From: Cafeteria roenbergensis
Taxonomy: Eukaryota > Sar > Bigyra > Bicosoecida > Cafeteriaceae
Assembly (NCBI GenBank): GCA_008330645.1
Contig: VLTN01000043.1
Location: 186,001 to 250,000 of the forward strand
DNA: 64,000 nucleotides
Reading direction: 5' to 3'
Shown here: piece after piece, positions 2,279 to 64,000 of the stretch
Layout: each line of letters opens with the position of its first letter
How positions within the stretch are numbered: position 1 is the first letter of the stretch
Program-made: the position numbers and the translations under genes
Notes under the pieces: generated by a model
Databases searched by the model: none
The model's input: the letters and a program-made list of their open reading frames with translations, nothing else
What the model was told of the DNA's origin: nothing

Positions 2279-3819
2279 TCAGCCCTTCTTCTTCGCCTTC
2301 TTGGGCTTCTTGACCTTTTTTTCTGCGGCGCCAACAACGGTGGTTCGGTACATCTTGTCCGAAAAGGCCTCCTTAGGAAGCTTGCACGACGGCTTCTTGC
2401 CCTTGGAGGTCACATCAAGGTGCCTCAACGATGCCGACCAGGCCTCCGCAAACTCAGCCTCGGGCTCAGGCAAGCCCTTGAGCTTGCATCCCTTGAGCGA
2501 CACGGCCTCGACGGCCGTCCACGCCTTGAGCGACTCCGGGATGGCCGTCAGCCCAGCATTGTGGTTGCAGTAAAACTCGCGCATGGCTGTGCAAGAACCC
2601 AGCTCCATCGGCAGATCCTTGAGGGAGTTGTTGCTGAGGTTGAGAATTTCCAGGCCGCGGCACGCCCCCACGGAGCTGGGAAGCGCAGCCAGCTTGTTGT
2701 TGTTCAGCCATAGCTGCTCGAGGCGGCCCATGAGCGAGAAGGTTTCAGGGCCGAGGTCCGTCACTGCGTTCCGGCTCAGCCGCAGCACGCGAAGCCGCGC
2801 GCACTCCGACACGCTCGAGGGAACTGCGCCCAGCTTGTTTCCCGAAGCGTCCAGCGTCTCGAGAGACCCCAGGCTGCCAAGCGACGACGGCAGAGCCTCG
2901 AGCTCGTTCTTGGCAACGAGCAGCTGCTTCAGGGCCAGGCAGGAGGTCACTTCGTCTGGGAGGGTCTTGATCTTGTTCTCCCGCAAGTCAAGCACCGTCA
3001 GCCGGGGCCACGCAGCCAGGCACGCGGGGTTGACCTCCGTGAGCGAGTTGCGAGGCGCCACGAACTCCCGGAGCAGCATCATGCCTGCCCACTCGTCTGG
3101 CAGAGCCGTCATTTTGTTGTCGCCCAGGCGAAGCGACTCGAGCTTGCGCAGCTCGCCCAGGACCGCAGGGCCGGGGCCGACGATGAAGTTGGCAGTGAGG
3201 TCCAGCGACACAATGGACCTGAGCGCCGCCAGAGGGGCGAGGGCCGAGCCGACGAGGAGATTGTCGCTGGCGTCCACGCTCACGCACGACTCGATCGTCA
3301 CGGGGTCCTCCACGAGAGTGGCAGGGAGCTCGTGGCAGCGCAGGCCGCTGATGTCGACCTTGCCGCCGGAGCTGGCCGCAGCGGCCGCCTGGAACTCCGT
3401 CAGGTGCTCGGCCACGGCCTCCACCTTGCGCGTGAACTCAAGGTGCTCAATGCCCAGCATCCCGTCCAAGCCATCAACCGGCTCAAACTCGGCGCCAAAG
3501 TCGCGCTGCAGGAGGGAGGCGGCACAAGTGTCGGGTGCGCGACGGCGAACTGGCCAGGTGAGCATGCGGCACACAGAGCCTCTGGCAGCGGAAGAGGGGT
3601 ACCACGCGGTACACTGATGTGGCACCGCCTAACAGCCAGGCGGGGGCGCGCTCCTTGCCGAGCCAGCGGCGCAGCGCGGCGCCGCGAGCGCGAGCGGCAG
3701 CCACCGAATGTGCACACGCGGGAGCGATGGCCGGCACAAAGACTCACCGCAAGAACCTCGGGCTCCTCCTCCTTGCCCTTCTTGCCCTTCTTGCCCTTCT
3801 TGCCCTTGGCCTTGGGCAT
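2279..3819 (-). CDS. Leucine-rich-repeat protein with lysine-rich ends
   Basis: Two exons: 3748-3819 and 2279-3505, with a 242-bp intron (GTGAGT...CTGCAG, phase 0), giving 432 residues. Exon 1 encodes MPKAKGKKGKKGKKG and an acidic stretch. From about residue 90 to 400 there are roughly a dozen 22-24-residue LRRs of the LxxLxLxxNxLxxLP type (for example LTVLDLRENKIKTLP and LEILNLSNNSLKDLP), as in the SHOC2/LRRC40/LRRC57 type of soluble cytoplasmic LRR protein. The C-terminus is again lysine-rich (KKVKKPKKAKKKG). No signal peptide or membrane helix is visible, so it is probably an intracellular scaffold. The ATG at 3819 is chosen because splicing from it restores a continuous frame; an open upstream extension inside the intron reads as junk. 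The partner is unknown. Confidence 0.8.
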
Positions 3820-4199
3820 GGCTCCCGTCGGCCGAGACGGCCCACGCAGGCGGTGCGAGCAGTTGCCGCCGGCTTGGATGGCGCTACTGGGCTCTGCAGG
3901 CGCGCAAATGTTGCCCGGCCCTTAATATTGCAATTGAAGAAGGGCCGGGGCGCTTGCTGCAGCGCCGCGCACGCGCGCCGGCAAGACGTGAGCATCGGCG
4001 GCACGGCAGAAACCCCTTCGCCGGCCCGCACGGGCGACGGCGCTGTGGCCCCGCCCCCGTTGCGATGCCATGGGCTTGCGCAGCGGGCTTCGCAGGGCGG
4101 CCCTCGCAGCGTCAGCGCGCGCCCCGCATTGCACATGAGCATGTCCTCCGCTGCCGCCCATTCATTGTTTTTCTCCCTCGACTAGGTCGCAGCTCCACG
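3820..4199. promoter_or_regulatory. Divergent intergenic promoter region
   Basis: 380 bp separate the LRR gene (minus) from the unknown gene (plus), so this must hold both promoters. It is GC-rich apart from one AT-rich island, TTAATATTGCAATTG, at about 3922-3936. The same AATATT core recurs in other intergenic spacers. No TATA box is obvious. Confidence 0.4.
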
Positions 4200-4973
4200 A
4201 TGGCGTCGGCTAGGGTTGCCAAGCGCGCGCGCGAGGAGGTGGCTGCGGTGGACTCTCCTGCCAAGCAAGCTCGCGCCGATGGAGCCAAGCCCGCAGAAGT
4301 CGTCCCGGAGGGTGCCGCCGCCGCTGCAGCCAGCGACCATGCCGATGCAGCCGATGCCGAGCCGGCCGAGCCCGTCGAGCCGGCCAAGCCCTCGCTTCGG
4401 AAGACGCTGGCGGGGATGAAGGACCTGCCGGCAGAGGAGTGCGCGGCCCTCATCCAGCTCTTTGTCTCGAAGCTCTCCGACGACGCGACCAAGGAGATGC
4501 TCGCCGACAAGAAGGGCGCCTCCCTCAAGCGCGCCAGGGAGTACCTCGACGACGCTGCCACGGCTCTTTGGAAGGGTCTTGCTGGGGTTTCCGACTTGGC
4601 CGCGATCGGCCAGGAAGTCATCAGCAGCGCTCTGGAGACCGCATCGGCACGCCTGGCCGACCCTTCCTGCGGGCGGCTCTGCCGCGCGCGCTGCGCCCGT
4701 GCAATGGGCGTGCTCGTTGGCAGCGGCGCGCTGGCAGGCGACGACGTCCAGACGGCAGTTTCGCGTCTCTCGGCCGCCATGAGCGACTCCGGGCACGTCA
4801 GCTGCGCTCGGTTCGGGGCGGCGGAGGGCGCCAGAATCGCCATCCCTGGCCTGTCCGCCGCCCAGCGCGCCTCGTTCGGCGCCCTGGCGGAAGAGGCCAG
4901 GAAAGGCAAGCTGAGCAAGCCCCTGCGCGCCGCTCTGGACGGCCTCACTAAGGCCCTCGCAGAGGCAAAGTGA
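4200..4973 (+). CDS. Hypothetical alpha-helical protein with N-terminal nuclear-localization-like motif
   Basis: Single exon, 257 residues, ATG at 4200. The N-terminus has KRAREE and an Ala/Glu/Pro-rich low-complexity stretch to about residue 65. The rest is rich in Ala, Leu, Lys and Glu and looks entirely helical, with no membrane segment or signal peptide. The basic KRAR near the start could be a nuclear localization signal. I do not recognise the family. A shared promoter with the LRR gene is likely from the divergent arrangement. The frame upstream of 4200 is open for about 490 bp, but its composition (proline, arginine, cysteine) is that of noncoding GC-rich DNA, so the in-frame ATG at 4200 is preferred. 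Confidence 0.6.
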   Translation: MASARVAKRAREEVAAVDSPAKQARADGAKPAEVVPEGAAAAAASDHADAADAEPAEPVEPAKPSLRKTLAGMKDLPAEECAALIQLFVSKLSDDATKEMLADKKGASLKRAREYLDDAATALWKGLAGVSDLAAIGQEVISSALETASARLADPSCGRLCRARCARAMGVLVGSGALAGDDVQTAVSRLSAAMSDSGHVSCARFGAAEGARIAIPGLSAAQRASFGALAEEARKGKLSKPLRAALDGLTKALAEAK

Positions 4974-5799: not shown

Positions 5800-5830
<31 letters not shown>

Positions 5831-8800
5831 CTCGTCGTCGCCCGCCCCCGCGCCGTCCGATTGGTAAGCCCCACCTGGAACCCTTCCACTCTCCTCCTCA
5901 AGGTCCACCGAGGGGTCCGCCGGGGCCGGGAGCATCGTGCCTGCGGGTAGCCCAGCCGTCATGGTAGACGTCGCCACCGCGCCTGGACGAGCAACGTCCT
6001 TGGTCGCCGGGCCGGGCACAGCCTGCTCGCCCCCGAACGGAACGCGGGCGGACCCGCTGGCAGAGCCACCCGCAGAGCGAGCAGAGCCACCCGCAGGGCG
6101 GGCCGACTCTGCCTGCTGTCCCGCCCGCGACTGCACGGCTGCCGTGCCCGTCGCTCTGGGCGTGGCTTGCGAGGCGTCCCGTGTCTCCGAGGGCAGCATG
6201 GGCTGCGGCTGCACCTGGCGAGCGCTGAGCGGCTCGCCCGGACCGGCCTTTTCAGGCGCCATGCCCTCGTCGGCGGGGTTGATCCGCGAGAAGGGCGCGG
6301 GCGGCGCCAGGTCCGAGTCGCCGTCGTCCTCAGCCTCTGCCCTGGCAAAGAGCGCACGCTTCCGCTTAGCGTCCTTGGCCGCCTCCGACGGGCCCATCAC
6401 CAGCTCTGGGGCAAACTCGTCCGGGACGAGGACGTCGTTGGAGTCGAGCAGAGCCAGCACGCGGTCGCGAAGGTCCTGGGGAGAGAGATGCGTGGCCCGG
6501 TCCGGGATGAGGCTGCGCTGGAAGGACACTTCCACGGCCAGGATCTGCGACAGCTGCGCCGAGTACGTCATCACCATCCGCGGTTTCACGCCGCTCCAGC
6601 GCGTGGCGAAGTCGTCGTCCTCGATCCAGGATACCACAACTCTGTCACCCTCCGGCCCGAGGTCCCAGCTGGTGTTGAGCACGGTGCGGATGGCGAGGAA
6701 CTTGTCCAGCCGGGCCTGGTTCATGCTCTGCCTGATCTCCAGCCGCACCGTCACGGTGTCCTGCAGCTCGCGCCTGGCCCGCCTGTTGTACCGGTACGCC
6801 ATGAACCAGGTCATGGCCGCCAGCAGGAGGAACGAGAGCAAGAACCACACCATCGGCCCGCGCTCGATCAGCGCCTGGTACACGGACCGGAACCAGTCCG
6901 TGTCGGCCACGGACCAGGTGCCGACAAGCCTGTCCAGGCAGGCAAAGGCGAAGAGTGACATGAGAATCCACTGCAGCCACTCGAGCGCGTACACCATGCG
7001 AGCCATGTTCGGCGACCCCGCTGCTTCCCGCAGAGCCACAACATGGGTCTCAAGCGACCCCATCACGTCCCGGTCACGAGACTCGGCAATGTGCTGCGCC
7101 TGCCGCTGCGTGACGGACAGCTCCTGCCCGGTTTCGCGCACGTACTTGCCGATGTCCGTGACTCGCCGAGCCATCTCCGACTGCAGCTGCGGCAGAGCCA
7201 ACCTGTCGTACAGAGCCCTGCCCGCAGCGGTGAGCGGCGGCTCCGGGATCTCCGTCGAGAGGAGCGACTCCTCCATGAAGGACACGATCTTCTCGAGGAG
7301 CAGCACTCTCCGCTCGAGGGTTGGGAGCCGCGCCGACGCTTCCTTCAACAGGAGGGGGTCACGCCTGGAGAGGCGGCACTGGGACGCCGTGGCGCGGATG
7401 TCGTCCTGCACGACGGAGACCACGCTGAAGAGGTTCTGGGCGAAGGCGTCCATGGACATGAGCTGCACATAGGAACACAGGAGGGGCTCGTACGTGCGGC
7501 TGTTGGGGCCGGCCAGCAGCAGCCCGTGGGACCCGAACACCAGCGTGTCGCTGTCGGAGATGCCGTACGCGGCCCGCGTGTCGCCAACCACCTGCTTGAG
7601 CTCGTTTTCATATTCGCCCTTGTCCAAATATTCCTCAGCCTGGAGGTGCGGGACGATTTCGTTGGCCACGATGAGGCTGACCTTGGCCCGGTTGGCGGAG
7701 TCCCCGCGGTAGACGAAGTCGAGGGCGCGGCGCTGGGCGGGCGAGAGGAGGGGCTCCACGATCTCGCTCGAGTCCGTTTGGACGTCAACGAGGAGCCGCG
7801 AGAGGTGGTCGAGGGAGATGGCGTCCTTCACGCGGTCCATCACCGCCTCCAGCTGCAGGCCGTAGAAGCAGGCGCCGTTGGCGTTGATGCTCACGCCAAA
7901 GGTCTCAATCTGCACGATGCCGTCGGGCTCCGGGAGCTGGATGTCGGCCTCCAGGTTCACGTGGCCCGCTAGGCTGTAGTCGAGGATCTGAACGGCGGTG
8001 AGGCCCGGATCCATCCTGAAGTCGGCCCGGGACGCGTCATCCTGCACCGCTGCCGTGTAGAACCCCCCGAGGACCCGCTCAGGGCTGCCCATGGTGAAGT
8101 TGAGGCTGACCATCTGGTTGCTGCCGAACGGGACGTACTCGCCTACGATAATGCTGACGCTGCTGAGAGTGATGATCTCCTCCAGGTCGTCCCGGATGGT
8201 GCCCGCAGCAGAGGAGGTGCACTCGTGAACGCGGTGCGCGTTCGAGAGGGTGGGGCGCCCTCCATGACGCAGGCACGCCGGGATGTAGGCCGAGGACACG
8301 TACGATACCTCTTCGATCGCCAGCACAGAGCTCTTCTTGCGGAAGCCCCCCGGCACCGGCAGGCCCTCCTCGTCCGCGGCTGCCAGCCAGAAGTCCGACC
8401 CGTCAAAGTCCACTACCATGAGCGCCCTGGACGGCGACCTGGCGAAGGACTCGACCGCGCTTCGGTCGTACTCGTCAATGCCTCGGATCACCTCCAGCCC
8501 CCGCCGCGAGATCTGGTACATGGTGACCGGCAGGTGATCGCGCGACGACACCTTGAGTCCGTTGACCAGCTTCTCCTCCCTGAGGTAGTCCAAGTCGCTC
8601 TTTCCTTCCTGAGAGACGTTGAAGAACATGCGGCGACCGTCCACGACCTCCGGGCTGGGAGCGTAATCGTAGTCCAGCGCCTGGGCCACCACGCCCTCGT
8701 ACACCAGTACCATGATGCTCTGGTGGCGCGCCCAGCGCTCGGTGTCGTCGGCCGTCAGGGCCGGGCGAGAGTGCAGGTGGATGAGCCAGAGCAGCCGCTG

Positions 8801-11536: not shown

Positions 11537-14047
11537 TCACTCCAGAACCTCGGCCTCCGTCGTCGCCCCCGCCACCGACGCCTCCATCCCCGCGATATCG
11601 TCCGCGGTGCCCTGGCCCCGCACCACCGCGTCCACCGTGGCCATGAGGCCGCGCAGCTGGCGCGTCCAACCCCGCGAAACGGGAGGAAGCTCCCGTCCGC
11701 CTGAAACCGCCGCCGCCAGCGCCTCAGAGCGGCCGCTTGCCCGAACCAGGGCGCAGACCACTGACCCGATCCTGCCCACTCCTTCCGGGGTTCCAGCGCC
11801 GCCCCACACACCCGCGGATGCCTCTGCAGCGCCGACCAGCCCCCCAGACCGGGCCGCGGCCTCTGCAGCAGCCCGGCCCGCAAGCTCTGCCAGGGCCTCG
11901 CGAAACCGCTGGGCGCCGACGTCTCCCATGGCCATCACTGCGAGCGACGCCACGTCAGCCCTCGACGATGCCGAGCCCATCACAGCCGGGTCAGCCATAG
12001 CCAGCACTGCCGATCGAACGAGGCCCCCCCCAACGGACCTCACCGCCTCCCACAAGGCCCCCGCCGCAGGGCCGCTCCAGGGCTTGGGCCTCGGGGTTTC
12101 AACCAGGCGCCTGACGAGGGACGCCGCCCACTTGCCCGGCCGCTGCGACGCTGTGCTGCGGGCTCTGCAGCAGGCAGCTGCCACTGCGAGCGTGTGGGGC
12201 AGCGCGCCTGCCAGCACGAGGGGCTCGCCGGCAAATCGATAGGCCGCGTCAAGCAGCCTCGCAGCCGCCACGGCCAGCTCCGGCGCCAACGACAGCGCGG
12301 GGGGCACAGGCAGAGCTGAACGCACGGACCCCTCCGCCTCTCCTGGCTCTGCCGACATGGTGACCAGCGGCGGGAGGACCCTCATCACGAGTGACCCGAC
12401 GGCCGAAACCGCCGCCTCGCCCGACGGGCCGGGCGTCGGCTCGTCGCCGAGGGCCTCCACGCCTGCGGCAGCGGCAAGCAAGGCTTCGGCAGAGCCGTGC
12501 GAAGTGAGAGCCACAGCGCAGCTGGCAAGCCACGCGCCCCCGGCGGCCGCCCCGGCAGCCCCCCCGGAGGGGTCCGCCGCGCCTGTGACGTCATGCGCGA
12601 TGACTCCCCCAAGGGTCTCGGCGATGACGACGAGGCAGCGTAGCCCCGCCCTGGACACGGCTGCGTCGGCCGAGGCGCTCGCCTTAGCCGCCGCCCCGAC
12701 CAGGGCGGGCCGCGCCCCGGCGAGCAGTGCGGCGCAGGCAGCGGCAGCGTCGCCCCCCATCAGTCGCGACCGCACCACCATCGACGCGAAACCGCCGATC
12801 CAGAGCCGCAGAAGCGACACAGCAGCTGCCGCGGCGGGGCCGCCGCCCGCCGCAGACATAGCCGCCTCTGCTGCCGCAAGCAGCGGCCCAACCATGGCCA
12901 CGACAGAGCCGGAGGCGCCGTCCGCTGACCCTTCCGATCCTGCCTGAACCATGGCCCAGGCGGCGGCTGAGCAGCCTGCGGCCGTGGCCACGGCCGAAGC
13001 CGCCTCGCGCGGCACAGAGGGGCCCGCCTGCGCCGACGTCGGCGGCACGAGCGACGAAACCGCCGCGGATGCCATGTGGGTCGGGAGCGGCTCAGGCCCC
13101 CCGCCGGCAGAGCCGGCACTGCTGGCCACAGCCGAGAGGGCGCAGACGGGAAGTGAAGTGACCACCCGCAGGGCACCGCTGAGAGCCAGCACGGCCCCGC
13201 GCAGGCCAGCTCCCTCCTCGTCGTCAGCCTCCTCTCCGCTTGCGCCGCCGGCGGCGGCATCAGCGTCGGTCATGGCGGCGCCCCCGCCCCCGCCCCCGCC
13301 CCCGCCGGCTGCCGCTGCTGCCGCCGCCACCAGCATCCCGACCCCGACCCCGTCCGCAGCGTGCCTGGTGGCGGCGGGCAGCTGCAGCGCCTGGAGCAGA
13401 GCCCGCATAAGCGGCAGAGCCACCGCTCCAGCGAAGGACGAGGCTGCAGCCGGCAGAGCCGCCGACAGAGCCGAGTGTCCCGACCGCGCCGCAGCGTCAG
13501 TTGCAGCCTTCACAGCGGGCGCCGCCGCCTCCTCCAGCGCGGGCAGCGCGGCAGATACCGCGTCCGCCACAGCGCGGAGCAGGATGGGCGGGGCAGCGGA
13601 CAGGCTTGACGGGTGCAGCACCCCGCACAGCGCAGTCAGCACGGACTGGGTTCGGAACGCGGTTTCGCGGGCGGTTTCGGGCGCGCGGGCCGATTCCACC
13701 AGCGCGTCCTTGGTTGCGGCGAGCGACGCGCAGGCGGCCTCGGCTCTGCTGATGGCGTCCCAGGACGGTGAGGGGGCTTCCCTTGAGCGCACCGCGGCGA
13801 GGGCCTGCTCCGCCTCCTGCTGCAGCCACGACACTCCTCCCACTCGGGCCAGCTCTGCCAGCGACTGGCGGGCGGCTTCCCGGGCCAAGTAAAAGTCCGT
13901 CTGGTCGCAGTTGGGCGTGCACACCGCTGATGCGCGCGTGATGGGGCCGAGACCGGCAGGGGAGCCAATGCCAGTCACGGTGGGGTCGGGCAGAGCCGGC
14001 CACGAGTCCAACGCCTCCAGGATCCATCCGCTCAGCGGGGGAACCGT

Positions 14048-14092
<45 letters not shown>

Positions 14093-15616
14093 CGACCGTG
14101 AGAGCGCCATGCAGCGGCGGTACTCCATGCGCGAAACCGCGCATCGGATCAGTGAGGCCGTGGCCGCGGCGAGCCACGGTGCCGGCGCGTCCGGCCGGCA
14201 GCTGGCCAGCACGATTGCGGCGTCCTCAACGGCTACGAAGGCCAGCGCCTGCGACGACGTCGCGCACGCAAGCAGCGACGAAACCGCCCCAGCTCCGCGC
14301 TCGCCGCTGGCGGCGGATGTGAGCACGACGGCCAGACGCTCCACCACCACGCTCACCACAGACGCTGCCGCGGCGGCTGCGGCGCGGCTCTGCCGTCCCT
14401 CGGATCCTTCCACTGCAAGCAGCAGCCGGGCCGCTCCCAATGCCGCCGACGTCGCCGCTGCAGCCGCCTCCAGCGCAACTCGCTGCGCCCCGGCAGCCCC
14501 AGCCCCGACTGCCGTCCCGACTGCAGCCGCAGCCGCAGCCCCAGCCCCGGGTCCCGGCCCGGCCTCGCCTCTCCCCAGAGCGGCGGCCTCCACGCCCCTG
14601 AGGCCCTCGAGCAACGCGCGCGCCGCGGCACCGAGGACGTCGACGGAAGGAAGCTCTGCCGCTGCGAAGAGTGCGCCTGGCAGAGCTGGGTGTGACGTCA
14701 TCAGGGCTGGAATGCGGGCCTGTGGGAGGACGCTGGCCCAGTCTGCCCATGCGTTGAGCGCAGCCGCGGCCAGGCGGGTGCGCGTCGGCGACGCCAGGCA
14801 GGCCGCCGCGCCGGCCCCGGGCCCCCCGGCGGGACTGCGCCCCTGAGCTGCCCCGTGCCGGCCCATGACGCAGGCCGGCGATCGGGAGGAGTCGGCCAAG
14901 AGGCCCTGCAGAGCCCGAAGCAGGGCCGGGGCGGCGGAGCGCAGCTCCGCGTTCGCGGCCGCGCGCTCGGAGGCCAGCGACGCAGTTGCAGTTGCGGAGT
15001 CCGGCAGGTGATGCGCGGCTGACAGGGCTGCGTTTGCGGCTTGAATTTGCTGTTCGCCAGGAGTGACGCAAGCCGCCTCAGCGGCGGCCTCCACGGCAGC
15101 CGTGATGGCGGCGCAGCTGCCAGGCGTCTGCACGGCGGCTGACGCAACAGCGCGAGCCAGGGCGTGGGAGGTTGCCGGGTTGGCCGCCTGCCCCATTAGT
15201 GCCGTCCAAAGCGCCCCCTGAACAGACGGTCGACTTGCAGGGGCAAGGCGGCCCCAGTCGCGCTCCGCCTTGGCCGCCAGGGCGTTGGCAGCCCACATGT
15301 GCGTCTGCGCGTCCTGGCTGGAGCCCAGGAGGGCCAGGCTGATCTCCCAGCACTGGTCGCTTTGCTGTATGGAGACCAGCCGAGACCCGGCCTCGCGCCG
15401 GCTCTCAAGCGACGTCTGCGGGGCACACAAAGAGATTCAGGCGTGGGAGGCAATCAAGGCTCGTGCTGGGCGCGCAGTGTCGACGAGCCTGGCCCCAGGC
15501 GCGGTCGCTGCACGGCGCTGGCGCGCGCTCGCCTCCAGCATCAAACGCGGGCTCACTGCCGGAGAATAGGCTGCCCTCAAGGCAGCGAGCACGAAGCCAG
15601 TCCCAGCGTCTGCCAT
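11537..15616 (-). CDS. Importin-13/transportin-3-like nuclear transport receptor
   Basis: Exon 1 is 15557-15616 and exon 2 is 11537-15415, with a 141-bp intron (GTGAGC...CCGCAG, phase 0), giving 1312 residues. The joined N-terminus reads AALRAAYSPA...RREAGSRLVSIQQSDQCW..ISLALL. This matches the importin-beta N-terminal HEAT repeats of IPO13/TNPO3/Mtr10 (tyrosine helix, then QxSxxCW and LL). TNPO3 carries SR-type proteins into the nucleus under RanGTP control. The rest is a long helical solenoid rich in Ala, with low-complexity insertions, including a polyglycine run encoded by 15 GCC units on the plus strand. At 1312 residues it is well above the roughly 920-960 usual for this family, mostly from Ala/Gly expansions. 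The first exon is only 20 codons; the frame upstream of exon 2 is open but noncoding in character. Confidence 0.75.
14048..14092 (-). repeat. (GCC)15 / polyglycine tract
   Basis: Fifteen perfect GCC units on the plus strand, read as GGC glycine codons in the importin-like gene. Uninterrupted, so likely polymorphic in length. Confidence 0.95.
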
Positions 15617-40004: not shown

Positions 40005-40491
40005 GCGGGCCTGCGGGCGAGGCGCCGAACGGCAGCACAGAGCGGCTTGGACGGGCGGTGCTCACGCGCGAAGTCGAGCGAAATCGCAGTTCTGGCAAAT
40101 TGCACTTGTCGCAGCACAGCTGGCGCTGGGTCTGCGCCGGCTCGCCGCAGCCCTGCTCGTGGAGCGAGTGGATCTGGGGCTTGCTCCGCGCTCACCGGGT
40201 TGCTTGCCTAGGCACGAGTGGGGCGCGCCACGCCCGCCGACGCTTCGGTTCTCCTCGCCGGCAGAGCCAGGCAGTTGCCAGCAACTCTCAACCCGATTCT
40301 CGAGGCCCGCTGCCCGCGGCGCACCGAAGCAAACTTGGGGAGCAGAATCGCGTGACTTTCGATGAATGGCAACTTGCGTGAGCATAGGCCGCACCAGGAG
40401 CGGGTGGAACAGGGCCAACGTCAGCAATCTCGGGCCGGCAACGCGCTCTGGTTTGTGCTTGATCGATTCGGCAGGTCTTCAACTCTTGCGG
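40005..40491. other. Spacer between ABCF1 start and KIN17 stop
   Basis: 487 bp with both neighbours on the minus strand, so it holds the ABCF1 promoter. It contains the only GGCTCTGCC-family hit outside a gene (40260-40268) and a mildly AT-rich patch near 40345-40390. Confidence 0.4.
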
Positions 40492-45900: not shown

Positions 45901-48432
45901 GAGCTCGAGTCGACGCGGGACGAGTCGCGCAGCCTCGGCGAGGCGCTGGCCTCCAAGGAGGAGGCCTCCGTGGCGCTCCGGGCGCGCCTGGACAAGACCG
46001 AGCGAGGCCTCAGACGCTGCACGAAGCGGCTGCGGAGGGCGGTGGAGGCGGCGGCGGAGGCCAAGGCTGCCGCGGCGGCTGCTGCTGCTGGCTCCAGCGG
46101 CGAGCGGGAGCTGTCACGCAGGGCTCGCGCGGAGGCGGAGCGGCTGGCCAAGACCCTGCTTCGGTCGGCCGTGCGGAAGGCGTTCGAGGGCCTGCCGGGG
46201 AAGGTGCTGTCGCTGCAGGACGCGAGACTGGCCATCGAAACGCTTGCGTTCGAAGCCGCCGAGGCGGCGAGAGACGCGGAGGCGGCCCGCGAGGAGGCGG
46301 CCCAAGCCAAGGCAGGCGCGGAGGCGGCCGAGGCAGCGGCTTCAGCCGACAGGGTTGCCCTCGAGGCCGATGCCGTGGAGGCGAGGGTGGCTCGGGCGGA
46401 GGCGGAGGCCGAGGCCGCGAGAGCCCGGGCCGCACTGGCCGCCACGGCAGGCTGGGCTCGCAGCGGCGGAGGCGGAGGCAGCAGCAGCACTGCCCGGGGC
46501 GGCGACACGGCAGGCGCCGGCGGCAGGGCAGACGCCGCTCCGCCGCTGGCTCTGCAGGCCGCTGGCCAGATGCTGGCCGGCGGGGAGGGCGGCCTGGACC
46601 GTTGTCATCGCGAGGCGTCCTGTGCGGCCCCGCTGCGGGAGGCAGGGGGCGGCGCTGGCCTGTCGACCGGCGGCTCTGCCGGGCTGACGGAGGCATGCCC
46701 AGCTGACGCCCCCGCCGCCGCAGACCAGCTCTTCGGAGCGTTCGGGGAGTCTGACGCCGCGGCCGACGCGGCGCAGCTCGCTGAGGACTCACTTGGCGGT
46801 GGGCGCGCCCCGGACCACGATGGCGACGGCGCTGATGGTGTCGCTGGCGCCGGCGGCGGCCGAGACGGAGGCGCCGCAGCAAGCCGAGGTCTCGGGCTCT
46901 CAGGTGACGCAACCGCGCAGACTGACGCGGGGGCGGCTGCACTGGCCACGGCGCTGTCAGCGCTACGGTGCGCCGTCCTGGGACCCTGCATGGACCTGTC
47001 GACTCGGTGGTTCGCAGCCACCGATAAAGCCAGACTTGACGCGACTGCCAGCCGCGCCCTCGCCGTCGCAAACGACGCTGAGTACGCCGGCTCTGCCGCC
47101 GCCGACGTCGCTGCCGTGCGCCGCGCGGGGAGGCACCTCCGTCGCGCCCGGGCTGAGGTGGCCGCCGCGACCCTCCGGGCGGCGGACGACGCGAGGGACT
47201 CTCCGATCCTGCCCGATGCGGACTCGCAGGCAGCCCTGGCAGCCGCCCAGGCGGAGCTCGGTGCCGTGTTCGCCCGGCTGGAGACGTCATCGGCGGAGCA
47301 CCCGGCGGTCGCCGCCAGCATCGAGTCGGTGCTCAGGCCGGTTGCGGCAGCGACCAACGTGGCTCTGCCGTGGTCTGCGCTGCCCGCTGCCGGGGCGTCC
47401 ACTGCCGTGGCTCTGCAGGCTGCGTGGGCGCACCTCCCCAGCGGCCCCCAGCGCGCCGCCACCGGCTCTCCGACTGCGCTGGCGGAGGCCGGCGCCGGCC
47501 CCGGCAGCCAGGGCGCTGGCGGCGACACGGCCACTTCGGGAGACACGGCTGAGCTGCTCGCCCTGCTTCGAGACCACGCCGAGGCGCTGGGCACCTCAGC
47601 GCTCCGCCTGTCGTCGCTCACCGCCGTGAACAGGCAGCTCGCGCGCAAGTTTGCCGTGGCCGACTCGGAGCTCAGCGGGCTGACCGGCGCCATCCGGGCC
47701 CGCGACCGGCGAATCGCGGCGCTGGTGGCAGAGCTGAGAGACGCGCTCGGCAGAGCCAGCCGCGCCGAGGAGGCGGCTGCGACGGCTCGCAGTGGCAGGG
47801 CAGGCGTCAGCCCGTACGACGGCTTGAGCGAGAGCGACGCGGACACCGATGCCTCTGCAGCGACCTCTCGACGGGGGGGCCTCTCCCGGAGGCCCCGAGC
47901 GACGTCGTCCTCGCGAGAGAGACATGTCCGGTTCGCTGGGCAGGCACCCTCGATGCGGCCCACCCTCGCGCATGATGGACACGTGATCGTCCCGCTGGCA
48001 GGGGGGCGAACCCCCCGGTCCCCGGCCGACGTCGGCGCCGGCCTGTCGCCGCAACGCACCTCGGACGTTGCCCGGGAGGCGTCCTTTCTTGGTCGATCGC
48101 GAGTCTGGCCCGGCCGGCTTGGCGACGACGACGACGCCGAAGCCGAAGCTGAGGACGAGCGAGCGGCCAGTGACGTCGGGGCCCCGGCGGTGGCCCGAGC
48201 GGGCGCGGCCGGGCGGGGAGCAGGAGGGCACCGACCGCAGGCGTGGTACAGCGCTGGGGAGCCGGCCGCGCCGGCGGGCGCGCGGCCAGCGTCGCCCGTG
48301 GATGCTGGGTCTATGTCGGACGGGTCTGTGATGAGCGACGCGGACGGGGCGGTCTGGACTGGCGTGATTGTGAAACCGGACTCAGGAGCCCCGCCTGCGG
48401 CCTCAGGCTGGATCGACGAGGACTCTGACTGA
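42916..48432 (+). CDS. N-terminal-motor kinesin (kinesin-1-like motor) with a 219-residue loop-12 stretch
   Basis: Five exons: 42916-43168, 43270-43317, 43431-43455, 43570-43841 and 44051-48432, all introns GTGAGC...GCAG; 1659 residues. The motor starts KVYCRVRPL; the P-loop GQSGSGKTHT (98-107) is assembled from three exons. Switch I is NTDSSRSH (212-219), switch II VDLAGSE (244-250), and the relay helix is [15 protein letters not shown] (269-283). Then residues 284-502 are Ser/Ala/Gly/Arg-rich with a run of six Asp, before the motor resumes at [20 protein letters not shown]. Loop 12 normally has only a few residues and touches microtubules. The neck and stalk contain coiled coil interrupted by Ala/Gly low complexity; the tail is disordered. 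Motor sequence is closest to kinesin-1 by eye. If the insert were an unrecognised intron the splice sites would be GTCGAG and CTGAG, unlike every other intron here. Confidence 0.88.
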
Positions 48433-48938: not shown

Positions 48939-51714
48939 TCAAAGCAGGGACAAGAGGTCCATGGCGCTGCCTTGCGCCGCCGTGGCCGGCTGCGCGAGCA
49001 CTGGCGCAGGCTCGCCAAAGCGAGGCACGTCGAAGGGGTCCGCCTGCACGGTGACAGCAGGGCCGTCGGCGAACGGGTCGAACGGCACCTCCAACGAGTC
49101 TGTCCGCCCGATGGCTCGACCCACGGCCGCGCCAGCAACGACGCCGGCGCCGGCGGGCGAGCCGGAGCGAGGAGACGCCCGTGCCGACATGCCGGCGCGG
49201 ATGCCGCCCACGGTGCCGTCGCCTCGCAGAGGCAGAGCTGCCTGCGCGCCCATCCTATTGGCAGAGCCTGCACGTCGTATCCTGGGCGGGGTGGCGCGAA
49301 GGCGCGACGACGGCGAGGGGGTGGAACGCTCCCCCGTCTCCTTCAGAAGCTCCCTCGCGCATATTTCCTCAAGCGACTGCGTGCCGAGGCTGGTGCCGGG
49401 CGCATGCAGGCCAGAGGAGGCGGATGACGCGCCGCTGTATGGAGGGAACTGGTGGCCCATGGCAGGCCGCGGCTCGCCCCAGCTCGCCAGCGATGCCGGC
49501 GCCTGGCTGGGCCACACCTGAGAGCGGGAGTGCGGCAGCGCGCCCTGAGCAGAGCCTGCTGCTGCTGCATGGAGGCCCCCGCCCGGGAGGACGCTGGATG
49601 CTGGCAGAGACGCAGAGGACGTTCGCGGGCGGAAGGGGGCGGTGCTGGGCCGAGGGGCGGCTGACGGCCCGGAGAGTTGCCTGGCAGCTGCCGGGGCAGC
49701 AGCGTGGCCGGCACCGTTGCTGTTGCTGTTACTGCTGCTGCTGGTGTTGGCGGTCGTGGCGGCAGCAGCAATGGTGCCGGCACCGGTAGCGACAGGGGCG
49801 GCCGCATACGCAATCGCTGCCGAAGCGGCCGCACGGTGGGGCCCTGCGCTGGTCGATGGTGTCGCGCTCGATGGGCGGCGGCGGGCGCCTGAGGTGGAGG
49901 ACGCGGTTGCGCGCGACGGCGCGACGCCTCCGGAGCGCGAAGAGGGGCCAGCGAGAGTGGTGGGAGGGCGCGGCCCTGGCGCAGGGCCGGAGGGCCGGGC
50001 GCCGAACGGGCCTGCAGCCGACGCGCCGCGAGGGGTGCCGAGGGAGGAGGTGCCGGCTGCAGGCGGGGGCGCGCCCACCACGCCCCGCGCTGACGTCGCC
50101 GACGTCGCCGGGCGGCGAAGGCTGCCAACGCCCTGGGGGGGCGGGCCGTTGCGCGCCGACGGTGAGAGCCCTGCGCGGGAGGAGGGCTCGGCAACGTCGC
50201 GGCCCCGGGGCGACCTGGGCGCGGCTCGGTCGCCCGCGGAGGAGCAGGACGAGGAGGAGTTCGAGGCGCCGCTGGTGGGCTGGGCGAGGCGGCGGGCCAC
50301 GGAGCGGGGCACGGCCCTGCTCGCGGCGTCGGTGCTCTTGCCCCTGCTCAGCATGGGAGCAGCGGCCCCGCTGCTGGCCTTGGCGCCGTGGGCGAGACGT
50401 GAGCGCGCCGCAGAGCCGGCCGAGAGGCCCGGTGCCCCCAGACCGGAGGCTGACGACGTTTCAGGGGCGCCCGCTGTGTGCGACGGCCTGTGGCGCAACA
50501 GGGCAGCGCGCGGAGGCGGCTGCATAGGAGACGAGCCGGTGTCGCCGCTGGCCACCACGGGGGCCGTCGGGCTCTCAACCCCCTCACGTGGAGACGCGGA
50601 CAGAGAGCGAATCCCCTGCGGCGAGGTGGTGATGACGCCTGGGCGGCCCGATCGGACAGGAGGGCTGGCGTGGGTCGGTGACTGTGGTGCCCCGTGGCGT
50701 GCCGGGGACGGCGGCGCCGTGGCTGCCATTGCCGCAGCTGGAGCAGGCGCGGGTGGCACCTCGGCGGGTCTCGCGCCGGGCGCAGCCGCAGTCAGCGGCG
50801 CATGATGGGGCGCAGCTTGCTTCCCGGCCCAGCGCCTCAGCCCTCCAGCTTCGGGCGGTGGCGACGCGAGCAGAGGAGCAGGCGCGCGGTCGGCCACCGT
50901 GACCACTGAGACGGAGCGCCAGCCGAGGCTTTCGACTGCGCCCACGCCCGCGCAAGCCTCCCTAGACACGGAGGCCACGCGCAGGAGCATGGACAGCACC
51001 CGCGCGGCCTCGTCCCGTCCCGCGGTGGTGGAGAGGGCGTCCTCCCTGCCCGCTGTGGCCTGGCGCGCGGCCACGGCGGCGGCGGCCTCGCCGAGCACCA
51101 GGCGGGGCGCGCTGCCCTCGACCGTCTTGGAGAACGCCGGCTGGTTCGCGAGGGCGACCTCTGCCCAGCTCGGCGGGCATCGAACGGACGACAGCGCGTC
51201 CTCCACGGCGGCCACAATGTTGCGCGCCAGGCCGTCGGCGTGGGCAGGGCGCGAGCGGTCCAGACACGCCTCTGCGCACACCCAGTCAGTGCGAGCGAGG
51301 CACCAGGGGCCTGGGGCGGCTGGCTCTGCATGTACGGCCAGCTTCGCCGGGCTGTGCGGGCTGGCTGTCCCAGCTGCGAGCTGCACAGCCAGTCTAAGAG
51401 GGGTGCAGAGCTCCACGCAGACGACGAGGCGGGTGAGGAGGCGCAACTGGGCACGGTGGTTTTCGGCCACCGTCGTGGGCGCGTGGACGCCCTCTCTGGA
51501 AGTCGGCGGGAGCGCAGACGCGAGCTGGCCACCTGTGGATGACGGCAGGCGGGGCAAGGAGCGCTGGCGGAAGCCGGGCCGGTGTTCAGCTGTGAGCCTG
51601 CTCGACGCTGTGGAGCCGCCGACGGAGCCAGCTTCGGAAGCGCTGTCAGGCTGGCCGTGCTCGCCCTGTTGGCGGCTGCTCCAGGCACCGCCTTGGCGAG
51701 GCTGCTGTTGTTGC

Positions 51715-51746
<32 letters not shown>

Positions 51747-54700
51747 TTGCTGCCGCTGCTGCTGCTGTTGTTGCTTGAGATGAAAGTGACGACGGGGGCT
51801 GCTGTGCCGGCTCGACTCGAGGCCTGTGCCGTCGGAAGCGCAGTCGTCCCCGCAGGTGGAGTCGTCACCCCCGCCAAGAGAGTGAGTCACCGAGCCATCG
51901 GTGGCAATCGAGTCGCCGCCGTCGCCGCGACGCCCGCCGCCACTGGCTGCCCAGCGCGCTGGGGACGCTTGAGGGGCTGCGCGTCCGGAGCTGCTGGCGG
52001 AGCTCGACACGACAGGCTGGGACGCCGCGCGCTGCAGGGCCGCTGCGGCTGCCTCGTCATCGTCATCGGCGTCGGCGTCGGATTTCTCGCAGCTGCCTCT
52101 GCCGCCGGGGCCGCTGCGGGAGACGCGCCCGGCGTCGCGCGTCCACTCGCCGTCCTGTGGGGTCCGGCGGGGCGACCCGCTTTCACAGCTGTCCGCTATG
52201 CCGCCCCTGCTCATCGCTAGGCCGAGAGACCCGGATTCCGCCCCGTCGGCACAAGCATGCAGGCTGCCGCTGCTGTTGCTGTGGCTGCGTTGCGAGCCCA
52301 CGCCGCCAGAGGCCTCAGAGCGGCTCCCACGGATCGTGCGCCGCCGCCCACGGGAACCGGAGCCGACCGCGTTGCTCTGTGAGCCCGAGCCGGAGCTTGG
52401 CGCAGCCCTACGGTTCTCCCCTGAGCCGCCCCGACCGAGGTGGCTGCTTGCAACGCCTCCGCTGCCGGCGGCAAGGTCACGGTCGTGGTCGTCACCGTCC
52501 TCGTCCTCCTCCTCGTCCTCGTCGTCCTCATCCTCGTCCTCCTCATCCTCTGTCTCGGCCATATCACCCCCGCGCCCCTCGCCGTCCCCACCCATTCCGT
52601 CAGCATCGCCGGCGCCGGGGAAGCCCATCATGGCAAGGTCGCTCGGCACGGACCCACCCGCACCGGGCAGGGACGAGCTCCCCACGTCGCCCACCGGAAA
52701 CTCCCAGCTGAGCAACGCGTGGTCAATCAGAACGCAGGGCCTGCTTGTGCCGGCTGCCGCTGCCGAGCCGCCGGCACCTGCGCCGCCGGGCTCGCTAGCA
52801 GAGCCACCGGGACCAGGAGCGGTTGTTGGAGGCCCGGCCGCGACTGCCCCAGCGGCTGCTGCGGCTGCCGCGGCTGCTGCCGTCGCGTCCTCGTCGCTGG
52901 CTGCCTCGTCGTGGCAAGTGATGACCGTGCACCCGCCCTTGGCATGCGGTGCGCCCATGCCCAGCACGGTGCCCACTGCAGCCTGCAGGAGGGTGTGGCG
53001 ACCCTGCCAGGAGCCCACGCGGTCGGAGACCGTCGTGAGAGGGGTCGTGTCGACCGCGGCCAGCGCTGCAGCGCCGCTTGGAACAACAGCTGTGCTCGCC
53101 GCGAGAGCAGCCCCCGCTTGCAACGGTGCAGAGGGCATGGCGCCAGCGGGAGCGGCAGGAGCCGATGCCGGGTGGCCGCTGTTGGACGCGGAGCTGGGAG
53201 CAGCCGACCCTGCCACCGACTCGAGCGCGGCCGCATCCCCGCCAAGGCTTCGAGCGACGCGACCACCGCTGAGGGCCTCAGAGCCGGCTGCAACGGTGAC
53301 AGCAGCGGAAGCCAGAGGCGAGCTTGCGCTGCTCAGGCCAGCAACAGCGTCCCCTGCACCTCCCCGCGCCCCGCCGTCCACAGACGCAGTGGCGCGCCCC
53401 TCGGCAGCCTGCTCATCGGCGGCGCGCCCCTCGGCAGCCTGCTCATCGGCGGCGCGTCGCCCGGCGACGCCCGGATTCAGCACCATCGCTGCGGCCCGGA
53501 AGGAGCCCGCCACGATCGCAGCCACGCCCTCGTGCCCTTGTTGCAGAGCCGCTGCCGCGAAACCGCGCGCGAACGTGCCCTCCTCGGGGCGGCCAGTCGC
53601 CAGGCCAGGAAGAAATCCATCGTCCTGGCTGTGACCGCCCGAGCCCCGGGAGGGCGCGGACGAGGGCGCCAACGGCTCCCTCATGACAGATGCGCTTCCC
53701 TCCACGGCGGCGAGGTTGGTGAAACCGCTCGAGGCGCGCACGCGGCCTTGGTGAGCCCGGGCGCTGCCGCTTCGGCGCATCATTGTGCCGACCGAGCGGG
53801 GCACGCGGGGCGAGGCGGAGCCCGCCCCGCGCATGCCTCCTGTCTCGTCGCCCCCCGCGGAGCGGTCCCCGGTGCCGCTGTCCAGCTCGGCACCGCCCCA
53901 CTCCGCGGAGGTGTGGCCTGCAGACAAGCCGACGCGGCCCGACGCCGTGCGCAGCGCCCTGCCGCTTGGCACTGCCTGCGAGCCGGTGGGCGACCCGCAG
54001 GCGTCAATGTCCAGTGCCGACACGGCGGTGGGGAGACGGCGGTTGCTGCGGTTGCGGGGCTCTGCCATGGTGACGAGCGTTCCAGTCGACGATCGCTGCG
54101 AGTGGTGGGACTGGCTTCTGGCCGACCGGTCAAACGATGATCCGGGTCGCAGGTGGTCAGGGAGGTGCCGCTGCAGTGCCGCCATGTCCAAGGCGTCGTG
54201 TCTGACGGAAAAGGCACCACTGCCCGCGGTCCGTGTCTGGGACACGCGCACGGCTGGGCGCGCCACTCCGTGCGGCGGCGGCGCCGCGGCCGTGTCGGCG
54301 GCTGCGCTGGAAGGGACGGAACCGACTGCCGGCACAGCCGTGCGAGCCTGAGCACGGACCGCTTGGAGAGCCAGCACTGGCGACGGCGCCGCGCCGCCCC
54401 TGGGCGAGCCGGCGCTGGGCGTGTGAATGGCTGCAGCCGGTGGCACGATGGGAACGGAACCGGGCGGGAGCACCAGTGCGGGTGCCCCCGTGGCTGGCGC
54501 CGTGGCGGGGGGGACCGCTTGCGCGGCTGCGCGGGCGATCGCGCCGTCGCAGGCGGGGGCGAACACTGGCTCGTCGTCCTCCGGCAGTGCCACGTCCGTC
54601 CTGACGAAGACGTGAGTGAGGAGCTCCGCGGCGGTGGGCCGGCGCCGGCGGGGCGCGCGGCGCGGCCGTGAGGGCTCTTGGGCTGTGCTTGCTGGCGACC

Positions 54701-55859: not shown

Positions 55860-56267
55860 GTCCTGAGGGCCGGCGGTTCCCCCCTGGAGCGCCGGGAGGG
55901 GCGTCTGGGAGTAGCCTGGAGAGGGTGCGCCGCGCGGGCGGCGGCTGCAACAAGCGAAAAGTCACCAAGCGTTCTCCCTCTCAGCGCATGCCTCGGCGCA
56001 GCCTGCGCCCTGGCGTTCGGAGGCTCTGGCAGACGCGCGGCGGGCGCGCGCGCAAGGGTCCGTGGACGGAGAGTGGAGTCTGGCCGCCACACCGCGCCTG
56101 GCCTGGGCAGAGTGGTCCCCGCCGCCGGCCACGGGGGCGGCGGCACACCTGGCATTCTGCGTGATTGGCGAAAGGCGCAGGTCTTGGGGTGGCCGCAAGG
56201 ATGTCACGCGTCGCTCGCCTCCGGCTTGCGTCCGCCGCCCTCACACGTCGTGAACCGGAACCGAACG
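55860..56267. promoter_or_regulatory. Divergent promoter region WNK / COX5C-like
   Basis: 408 bp between two start codons facing away. An inverted CCAAT box (GTGATTGGCG) lies at about 56161, some 105 bp before the plus-strand ATG. Otherwise GC-rich. Confidence 0.45.
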
Positions 56268-59027: not shown

Positions 59028-59636
59028 GGCTGCCTTTGCCAAGCTGTGGCCCCCGCTAAGTGGCGAGCACGCAGTGAGCCCCGCGGCTGCTCTGCCGGCT
59101 GGCTCGCGACGGCGGCACGGCGGCGCAGTTGTGGCTGAGAGTTGTTTCCGCTCCCGACCCGCGGCTGCGACCTTGCCTCGGTGACCGGCTCGCCTGCGCG
59201 GAGCCCCCAACGCAGCTCGTGCAGTCTGTTTGCTCGGGTGGGAACCTGACCGGCAGCTTGGCTCGGACGAAAACGTTCGCGGGTCTTGGGTCGGACAACG
59301 AGATGCACATCACACAACGAATCGAAACGCCACAGCGCTCTCAGTCGATGCAAAGCCCTGAGCAGGTCCACGAGCGCCGAGGCGAGCAGCTGAGGCCAGC
59401 CCTGTGCTTTTAGGGCGCGGCACGCGCCCCCTAAGCCTCGGCGCTGGCACATGCTTCAAGGAGCGCATCGGACTGGGCACATTAGTGGGTCGCAGCTCGT
59501 TGCATGATATCACGAATCATGTGCGGTTTCGGCTCGTGTCCACAGAACGGACTGCATGCTTGTCGAATCACGAACCCCTCTCTTGCGCTGCTGGTAGTTC
59601 ACTTTGCAGTGCTGGCTAGCTGAGAGTGAGGTGGGG

Positions 59637-62700: not shown

Positions 62701-64000
62701 GCTCGCACTGGGAACGACATGGTCGCGATTGTGGCGCCCCCACCTGCTGGCTGCGCGCTGAAGACCAGCTGGAATCCGGACCCTACCACGGAGCCAGAGC
62801 TTGCGACGCGAATGCCGGAGAAGTCGGCCACGCCTCCCGTGGCGCGGACGCTTGTTCCGCCGCCGCGCTGCGTGACGCGGGCCACAGCTTCAAGTCCAGC
62901 AACTTCCGTTTGCTCCGCGCTCGAAAAGAGTGAAATGTGGACCACGGTGCTGGAGTCTGTGGTCACGCGCTCTCCGTTGTCGTCCACGAGCTCCACGAGC
63001 GGCGAAGGCGACAGCGTCTCACCTTGGATCAACGCCCCACACGAGGCAACCACTCGCAGCCCAGTGGCAGCTCCGGCCTGGCCTGACACCTTGTAGAGAC
63101 CTGTCGACGCGTAGAACGGCTCTGCCGTTGACCAAGGCCCAGTCTGACTACCTGAGGCCGAGTACTGCAGCAAGAGCAAGACCGGGCCGCGACTACAGGC
63201 AGGCACTGCACAGGTCACGAAGTCGTCGCCGGGCGGGTCGCACGTGCCTGCTGCAGTTCCGTCAACCCGCTGCCTGGACTGGACGTCGGCAGCAACCACC
63301 CGGTACATGGCCGACGAGGAAACGTCAAAGTCCCCGCCTTTGAATGTGATGCTGCTGGCTGTCCCGCCAGACATGCCGCCTGCGGGCTCCGATGACGTCA
63401 CGTACGGCGTGCCCGCTGTGATGACCGAGCTGGACGACCCTTGCAGGAAGCCCATGCTCGCCAGCCCGCTAGCGCCCCAGTCGGCTGCCTGGGAGCTGCC
63501 CTGCCCCGTGGTCCCCGCTGTCGACGCAGACCCGCTGGCCGAGCTGGTGCCTGCCTGTGACGTGCTGGACGCTGCAGCAGAGCTAGGCACGACCACTCTG
63601 GCATCCGACGTCGTCAACCTGAGGGCACAGCGTCCGAAGGCGCAGAATCCGCTCAGGCAATCGGACGCCTGCGTGCAAGAGTGCTCGAGAGGGCATGGGG
63701 CGCAGGCTCCGCCACACTGGCCTGGGGAGCAGGCAGATGCGGGCTGGCACACGCCCCCCAGGCAGGACTTGGAAACGCAGTCGGTGGCAGCGGAGCAGCG
63801 AGCGAACACCGAGCAGAGGCGCGCGGTGCCACAAACAGCGCCACAGTCCAGGTCCGCTTCCCTCCCTTCCTGCCAAATGCCGTCGAAGCACGACCCGGTC
63901 CCGCAGGTCCCGAGGCTTGCGCCCGAGAACGCAAAGCGGCACTCGCCCGAGGCGCACTGCGAGGCTTGGGAGCAAGCGCCCCCGACGCCAGTCGGGCCGC
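59712..64000 (-). CDS. Cys-rich multi-spanning surface protein (partial, 5' end off window)
   Basis: The minus-strand frame stays open from the stop at 59712 to the right edge, over 1400 codons, so the true start lies outside. The N-terminal visible part has repeats of the form CxxGxC / DCxSxxCxxGxC (for example DCVSKSCLGGVC and DCLSGFCAFGRC). A Ser/Thr/Gly-rich linker and an Ig/IPT-like or carbohydrate-binding-like region follow. About eight or nine hydrophobic segments then appear from roughly residue 700 onward of the part starting at 63809 (AWIHPVLLGVAAAAALAQG, ALLAVALVSLVALQAVIGAF, VVLFFLTVAMLSLAEAA, IQVLLALLLLALVLLQFG), then a cytosolic tail of about 200 residues. A large ectodomain followed by a TRP/polycystin-like or transporter-like membrane block is common among protist surface proteins. 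No channel or transporter signature is decisive. Confidence 0.7.
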   Translation of the reverse strand, partial: GPTGVGGACSQASQCASGECRFAFSGASLGTCGTGSCFDGIWQEGREADLDCGAVCGTARLCSVFARCSAATDCVSKSCLGGVCQPASACSPGQCGGACAPCPLEHSCTQASDCLSGFCAFGRCALRLTTSDARVVVPSSAAASSTSQAGTSSASGSASTAGTTGQGSSQAADWGASGLASMGFLQGSSSSVITAGTPYVTSSEPAGGMSGGTASSITFKGGDFDVSSSAMYRVVAADVQSRQRVDGTAAGTCDPPGDDFVTCAVPACSRGPVLLLLQYSASGSQTGPWSTAEPFYASTGLYKVSGQAGAATGLRVVASCGALIQGETLSPSPLVELVDDNGERVTTDSSTVVHISLFSSAEQTEVAGLEAVARVTQRGGGTSVRATGGVADFSGIRVASSGSVVGSGFQLVFSAQPAGGGATIATMSFPVRAFVSLDSDSADTAAKGCSTDLDVAGTCCAAGDDSDVVLDECGLCPESAEASRQGCGVRVTVPVEVSSSSPIAAPAAGARISAAQLAWRVTQGLADAAGYELSGTRATGARVLEAGTAPQRALWEAGRPASASATVAPGTTVLVSVLVPPPEGGWAISGPMQRDSVLKRLRSATTNSSSSLWNGTAFASGSPSSGPMEISAALDANAASPDFGGEAVCRGVCSGLEMALGCTGCSIVDPEGLSSNATKFGICVREQGSAGEFVVRDAPQCPHLPVADFGQATELESIMAWIHPVLLGVAAAAALAQGTIDQCRAASGKAPLHSGSFATVTAVLPAVAAFGAGVLDVADHGQFAVALSLLHVAMPPLLKLDGQLLLASTGILGWLWNFVQPALQISVSQTAPGASAGQPNSSLALATDGGCDSAWQAFPDDPVGTLTSWGCGAQAPHALSVMSIMASVPAQALLAVALVSLVALQAVIGAFFGAMGVARCCILHRTSSSKADVANESRRSLATTASRVRAGRASELSSRADDRPRFSPAPALWDAFARTAVNTVVLFFLTVAMLSLAEAARQPCASGAGGPLLGWASLGLLVVGCFALVTLSGCRTRPFGRCLRLCKGPRPLVTQPPALLPRGFAYSSHGVRLTDPTGRLNHATCAGRSLPSVLLVDKFATAALLVGLSKYPAVQVGTMLSKQVALLAWLAATQGFAFRFSRTVAIATAAARSVVLVLVLALVPPHETEESPTLRAVGGLAYAIQVLLALLLLALVLLQFGPVAKLFISCECGRRVSSTAMCTGDSAGERARPSPGNAKRGTTARGDHLEQQVNRMAQFANPMLQSGGGRGQGKRQNVSVGSAKAGPGSRRPTTIAAAASGGRLSSGFSTREDERSQESSRTLSEGSQGAIGSPLRSPHAGDVTPVGFSPLLSAAASHTATLSASPDAKATSPAGLGARADLKDGQRPRSMLTLDAAAAAGRARSGAQVVPADNPLLRPRRAVPLLKQ

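Follow-up and report, generated by a model that had tools for sequence, protein, structure and literature searches.

The nine-letter word GGCTCTGCC (as a pair over both strands, GGCTCTGCC/GGCAGAGCC) is over-represented across the whole genome of Cafeteria roenbergensis (its strain BVI, treated in PMC6972860, goes by C. burkhardae in later papers), and our findings make it very probable that it is the strongest form of a dispersed, degenerate class of duplex-DNA sites, approximately YRGC-TCT-GCYR, in the nuclear genome. As to how so many copies came about, a duplex site subject to drive by biased repair or conversion seems the best explanation overall, albeit one we would give an even chance. 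In the 64,000 nucleotides analysed here (contig VLTN01000043.1, positions 186,001 to 250,000; the window), a preliminary description had reported 33 exact copies over both strands. Our recount gives the same total, 15 on the + and 18 on the - strand, with 31 of the 33 positions exact and two to be corrected (13412 is 13413 and 45824 is 45814). Dinucleotide shuffles of the window average 3.2 copies (standard deviation 1.9, maximum 8 in 100) and Markov models of orders 1 to 4 fitted on it expect 3.1 to 5.0; order 5, which takes in much of the word itself, expects 12.9. When words are ranked within the window only, GGCTCTGCC comes after simple repeats and AAGGACAAG, a word from a 9-bp tandem array at 58123-58234.

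The genome-wide count by which the preliminary description had proposed to judge the word lies far from expectation: over 36,303,456 bp in 167 contigs, GGCTCTGCC occurs 10,998 times (strands 5445/5553; 303 per Mb) and the reversed word 994 times (485/509). An apparent one-strand run of places on contig C1, among the matches listed for the end-changed form AGCTCTGCC (see below), was set aside as apparent listing order rather than biology. For finer comparisons we used a 314-kb sample made up of the window and 250 kb of contigs C1, C3, C9, C15, C24 and C35, to which all counts below refer unless the window or the genome is named. Here, an order-3 model expects 14.3 copies against 86 observed, making GGCTCTGCC third among 9-mers by z-score after two simple repeats. 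Among all 1,260 permutations of its letters, with a median count of 10, it ranks second; its own shifted overlap tops the list at 88, and triplet-repeat words come next at 78. Overall the excess amounts to about 7 to 11 times expectation.

Much of this excess sits in coding sequence. A seven-state coding model without introns, trained on the sample with GGCTCTGCC masked and the second word described below unmasked, assigns 42 of the 86 copies to sense, 28 to antisense and 16 to noncoding positions. When synonymous codons are shuffled within genes, such that proteins and codon usage stay fixed, the 70 coding copies fall to an average of 10.2 (maximum 19 of 200), which bears out the earlier statement that amino-acid choice alone is insufficient. 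Equally borne out is the use of several reading frames: copies number 25/2/15 in the sense frames and 11/2/15 in the antisense frames, with shuffle means of 2.7/0.7/2.4 and 0.7/0.7/3.0, respectively; the two frames holding 2 copies each offer little opportunity and are too few to weigh. Silent codon choice often writes GGCTCTGCC, and does so on both strands. An origin of the excess in base composition, in preferred codons or peptides or in faulty assembly is, by the same shuffles and by the letter permutations, very unlikely. Raw density is over-dispersed and does track peptide opportunity, as that explanation would have it, but the counts per strand and frame go with what the amino acids tolerate, which is not how base-calling errors behave.

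In the window, our gene calls agree with the earlier split of 32 coding copies into 22 sense and 10 antisense, leaving 1 noncoding. The copies of GGCTCTGCC lie as follows (ORF, open reading frame).

2889..2897, - strand, sense, LRR gene
3099..3107, - strand, sense, LRR gene
4675..4683, + strand, sense
6059..6067, - strand, sense, 1435-aa ORF
7191..7199, - strand, sense, 1435-aa ORF
12345..12353, + strand, antisense, ORF 11540-15436
12488..12496, - strand, sense, ORF 11540-15436
13106..13114, - strand, sense, ORF 11540-15436
13413..13421, - strand, sense, ORF 11540-15436
13452..13460, - strand, sense, ORF 11540-15436
13989..13997, - strand, sense, ORF 11540-15436
14386..14394, + strand, antisense, ORF 11540-15436
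25201..25209, - strand, sense, Lon-like protease domain, gap-free aligned columns
25388..25396, - strand, sense, Lon-like linker, unaligned
25400..25408, - strand, sense, Lon-like linker, unaligned; 12 bp after the 25388 copy
26024..26032, - strand, sense, Lon-like linker, unaligned
26328..26336, - strand, sense, Lon-like AAA region, Ala-Leu-Pro, aligned columns
26345..26353, + strand, antisense, Lon-like AAA region, Gly-Arg-Ala, aligned columns
26600..26608, + strand, antisense, Lon-like AAA region, Gly-Arg-Ala, aligned; one-residue gap next
31323..31331, + strand, antisense
38113..38121, + strand, antisense, ABC-F ATPase domain, Ala-Glu-Pro; gap-free against ABC subfamily F member 1
40260..40268, - strand, noncoding by our gene calls
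40891..40899, - strand, sense, KIN17-like gene
40973..40981, + strand, antisense, KIN17-like gene
44848..44856, + strand, sense, kinesin gene, between two aligned motor parts
45814..45822, + strand, sense, kinesin gene
46672..46680, + strand, sense, kinesin gene
47089..47097, + strand, sense, kinesin gene
47361..47369, + strand, sense, kinesin gene
47749..47757, - strand, antisense, kinesin gene
49260..49268, - strand, sense, kinase ORF, coding run 48943-51262
54058..54066, + strand, antisense, kinase ORF, coding run 51813-55916
63118..63126, + strand, antisense; retained in two other copies of the locus at 98% identity

The sense majority that the preliminary description had stressed, and which would suit the exonic splicing or mRNA signal among its possible meanings, is real in the window (22 of 32 coding copies) but uninformative. 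Beyond the window, sense and antisense copies stand at 20:18, and the 42:28 of the whole sample (60% sense) is what peptide opportunity predicts (5.50:3.65, again 60% sense; p=1.0). Together with antisense frames 0 and 2, which are raised as the sense ones are, and with noncoding calls that are enriched as well (16 copies against 5.1), this makes a role in mRNA, be it as exonic splicing enhancer or as translation or stability element, extremely improbable. Since the sense share equals the opportunity expectation, the signal seems to reside on duplex DNA rather than on transcripts, and of the meanings first proposed, a recombination or chromatin mark stays compatible with our data insofar as such a mark is read on DNA.

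Measured against the synonymous null, the site has a strict centre and tolerant ends. Single changes inside the central TCT leave 0.7 to 1.6-fold, i.e. no excess, whereas forms changed at the ends are still in excess (A first, 4.4-fold; T last, 4.1-fold; A last, 2.7-fold). Genome-wide counts say the same: end-changed AGCTCTGCC occurs 5,077 times against 580 for its reversed form, and centre-changed GGCTCCGCC 2,668 times against 5,378, a ratio that speaks for no comparable excess, the reversed form being perhaps common itself. The degenerate RGCTCTGCY reaches 19,444 copies against 2,372 reversed (536 per Mb). In the sample, changing the two ends together (AGCTCTGCT) leaves about the number expected (3 against 2.2). 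One extra base on either side adds to the signal (YGGCTCTGCCR, 42 against 3.8); past that base, the flank logo holds at most 0.09 bit per position. With its symmetric arms around an asymmetric centre (GGC-TCT-GCC, reverse complement GGC-AGA-GCC), the word is not palindromic. A hairpin or stem-loop element was ruled out, as complementarity does not extend the arms (of 86 copies, 32 pair at the first position outside the word and 23 to 33 at each of the six beyond).

GGCTCTGCC has company. Two screens, one based on a phase-specific order-3 model (among words listed) and the other on synonymous shuffles, return one other family of comparable multi-frame excess, GCGAAACCGC. Its coding copies number 24 against 1.1 to 1.5 expected and fill 5 of the 6 strand-frames; genome-wide it occurs 2,499 times and its reversed form 249 times. 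For its nine-letter core, with 35 coding copies, one common factor of 12.3 fits (p=0.68). This second word, albeit unrelated in sequence, behaves like GGCTCTGCC. Other words show lesser excess: CAG/CTG-type words about 1.5 to 2.4-fold over the synonymous null and, among words listed, weaker multi-frame words that passed the four-frame mark, for example CGGAAGGA (24 against 8.2), CTGCCGCTGC (41 against 13.5) and several C-rich ten-letter words at about 2.4 to 4-fold. In 5-kb bins, GGCTCTGCC and the second word co-vary (r=0.41, permutation p=0.005), a figure uncorrected for peptide opportunity. In the window, the second word is found as CGAAACCGC at these places.

11901..11909, + strand, CGAAACCGC, antisense
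12404..12412, + strand, CGAAACCGC, antisense
12787..12795, + strand, CGAAACCGC, antisense
13055..13063, + strand, CGAAACCGC, antisense
13659..13667, - strand, CGAAACCGC, sense
13671..13679, - strand, CGAAACCGC, sense
14132..14140, + strand, CGAAACCGC, antisense
14279..14287, + strand, CGAAACCGC, antisense
31606..31614, - strand, CGAAACCGC, sense
41665..41673, - strand, CGAAACCGC, sense
53558..53566, + strand, CGAAACCGC, antisense
59523..59531, - strand, CGAAACCGC, noncoding by our gene calls

How the copies arise can be approached through the peptides they encode. Gly-Ser-Ala occurs 143 times where local composition predicts 138.5 (standard deviation 12), with 25 of these written by GGCTCTGCC; Gly-Arg-Ala occurs 107 times against 110.4 (standard deviation 9.7), with 11 written by the word. 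As neither peptide is in excess (250 against 249 taken together), GGCTCTGCC seems to supplant alternative ways of encoding them. Ala-Leu-Pro and Ala-Glu-Pro do exceed expectation (133 against 101; 30 word-coded), and in this frame copies may have come with an amino-acid change or insertion, unless the peptides are favoured anyway. For two ORFs (Lon-like and ABC-F) with 8 copies between them, alignments to solved structures were inspected at each residue, the ABC-F alignment being strong and the Lon-like ones weak (about 41 bits each). Aligned columns hold 5 of the 8 copies (25201, 26328, 26345, 26600 and 38113), the 3 others falling in unaligned linker; none of the five has a gap within the nine bases, and one has a one-residue gap directly after. 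Self-BLAST of the sample together with eight further stretches (L001-L008) gave no paralog pair differing at a word, and the Lon-like stretch lacks a full second copy, its matches being limited to two pieces 60 to 71 bases long. Contigs C132 and C64 (stretches L035 and L036) also carry window positions 62900-63350, at 98% identity, the word being present in all three and thus uninformative on gain or loss; a DNA alignment that sets these copies in opposite orientation was left out of account. That copies come about by point substitution where the protein tolerates change is supported by these data but not proven.

The preliminary description had also entertained a spreading short insertion. 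In such a scenario a mini-mobile element, or else the remnant of a longer repeat, would have carried the word around, and it could draw on the Ala-Leu-Pro/Ala-Glu-Pro excess and on tandem pairs of GGCTCTGCC at 12 bp, of which there are 83 places genome-wide against 7 for the reversed control (stretch L004 has ten copies within 3 kb, part of them as 12-bp tandem). Yet copies share little flank, the five structure-aligned ones show no internal gap, Gly-Ser-Ala and Gly-Arg-Ala are not in excess, and the counts over frames (25/2/15/11/2/15) track amino-acid tolerance instead of being uniform. To our minds, an insertion of this kind is therefore most unlikely, and the hallmarks of short mobile elements (clean insertion, conserved ends, flank duplications) are not those of GGCTCTGCC, judging by its flanks, its frame-0 peptides and the five aligned copies.

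Given the peptide expectation gene by gene, the 70 coding copies fit a Poisson distribution over 116 coding runs of at least 300 nt with a common factor of 7.4 (X2 80.5 against a null mean of 76.7, p=0.37). Per quartile of GC2 the factor is 6.9, 6.2, 7.9 and 7.4, and per quartile of GC3 it is 4.3, 8.8, 8.1 and 7.2. Raw counts per 10 kb are over-dispersed (variance/mean 2.5), and clustering in linkers, as first noticed, does hold for raw density; in the Lon-like and kinesin linkers it is mostly due to peptide opportunity. Gene-specific clustering is superfluous once this opportunity is counted. Near-neighbour avoidance gives no sign in the sample, with pairs 11, 12, 12, 17 and 39 bp apart, and such close neighbours suit a per-site drive better than sites required once per stretch. 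Of the ORFs concerned, the Lon-like one (24920-27439, - strand) has a Gly/Ser/Ala-rich unaligned stretch between its AAA part (to residue 456) and its protease part (from 733), and about 210 residues split the motor domain of the kinesin ORF (43846-48429, + strand; aligned at about 62-156 and 369-446), being either an insert or a read-through intron. A DDE_Tnp_4 transposase ORF (33272-34843, + strand) in the window's lowest-GC 4-kb bin has no GGCTCTGCC inside, and a tandem array of roughly 280-bp units at 94-96% identity (stretch L031, 499-1859) contains neither word.

In the explanation we favour, a sequence-specific DNA-reading protein would recognise the duplex through a strict TCT centre with tolerance at the outer bases. 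Mutations completing a site would be retained slightly oftener than those breaking one, possibly because repair or gene conversion near a bound or chemically marked site favours the word. Such molecular drive has been proposed for HIP1 of cyanobacteria, and individual copies would need no function of their own. The alternative is selection for bound sites. Here an abundant protein with a role in DNA architecture, nucleosome positioning, replication or gene-body chromatin would bind YRGCTCTGCYR, with GCGAAACCGC bound by it or by a different protein, and weak selection would hold many thousand sites, the majority of them in gene bodies as far as coding sequence permits. The strict centre with its graded end tolerance, much like a protein-binding matrix, would be expected of such sites, as would the higher factor seen in coding sequence (about double that of noncoding calls) and the co-variation of both words at 5 kb. 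Against this, the correlation drops at 10 kb (r=0.29, p=0.076, likewise uncorrected for opportunity), values of r with the second word go up to 0.50 among 60 control words (mean 0.10), and genes share a single factor once opportunity is counted. While the common per-site factor favours drive, the higher coding factor favours weak selection. We regard selected sites as a real but rather doubtful option and lean slightly towards drive, without putting it above an even chance.

Several observations weigh against drive or the model behind it. The noncoding excess is about 3-fold and stays below that of coding sequence (70 against 11.6 in the phase-specific order-3 model; binomial p=0.014 for the difference in factor), though drive by itself ought to act no less strongly on sequence free of protein constraint. 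In addition, the middles of coding runs look richer in GGCTCTGCC than their ends (chi-square 8.4, 4 df, p=0.08), the factor is smaller in the lowest-GC3 quartile (4.3 against 7.2 to 8.8), the Ala-Leu-Pro/Ala-Glu-Pro peptides are in excess, and the gene calls behind these figures come from our own model, made without transcripts. Some changes at arm positions show mild 2 to 3-fold excess (4 to 11 copies each), which decay of old copies could equally produce. Finally, C5 DNA methyltransferase (PF00145) has 0 matches in the genome, which leaves the closest HIP1 mechanism without its enzyme here.

Should a DNA-level force indeed determine how about one sixth of Gly-Ser-Ala occurrences are encoded (25 of 143), any test of codon selection or silent-site neutrality in such genomes would have to take it into account. 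In bacteria, highly iterated words have long been puzzling, and a eukaryote with two such words, several sequenced strains and feasible chromatin assays allows the same question to be asked. An over-represented eukaryotic word is not new in itself, since others are already in print: in the portions of PMC1939737 concerned, over-represented words of unknown function are listed for chromosomes of C. elegans, Drosophila and humans, with molecular drive argued, and Table 7, whose headings start with C. elegans chromosome V, gives a nine-letter word of unknown function first. Like GGCTCTGCC, these are short and above expectation, a likeness that goes by the table heading. For Cafeteria, searches by word (judged on the titles listed), concept and organism, in literature with few subscription papers, found no report of a GGCTCTGCC-type word or a HIP-like nuclear genome; 'motif' is absent from the Cafeteria genome paper, and passages of three Cafeteria papers including PMC8547959 report no such word.

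Recombination or segregation sites of the Chi/KOPS type are short over-represented words as well, and strand-polar along the replichore. For GGCTCTGCC, strands are equal genome-wide (5445/5553), by a comparison of strand totals. We know of no transformation or natural competence system in this flagellate. The uptake sequences of Neisseriaceae and Pasteurellaceae, as treated in parts of PMC1939737, are 9-10 bp words gathered by point mutation in tolerant regions, again with molecular drive argued; they prefer noncoding DNA, whereas GGCTCTGCC is richer in coding sequence. Closest is HIP1, which in the sections of PMC4390886 that describe it is a short exact word far over expectation genome-wide, at a density of 500-2500 per Mb that is of similar order to the 303 of GGCTCTGCC and the 536 of RGCTCTGCY, and with deviants mostly at the ends, as those of GGCTCTGCC are at the first or last base. 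HIP1 differs in being a palindrome, while the TCT centre of GGCTCTGCC is asymmetric; as to a cognate methyltransferase, our search, which covered the C5 family, gave the above 0 matches. Its hosts are bacteria, while here the word sits in a eukaryotic nucleus (kinesin, KIN17, eIF2B/eIF5 and other eukaryotic families) with a second, unrelated word beside it. A photosynthetic alga was discarded as host, given that a chlorophyll-binding family was looked for and not found. We tentatively suggest, at somewhat less than even confidence, that Cafeteria may harbour a HIP-like system in a eukaryotic nucleus, in which dedicated factors would read two unrelated 9-10 bp duplex words, possibly with modified bases involved. 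A bias in repair or conversion would then push point mutations in coding sequence towards these words, leaving silent codon choice partly to a drive on DNA instead of to translation.

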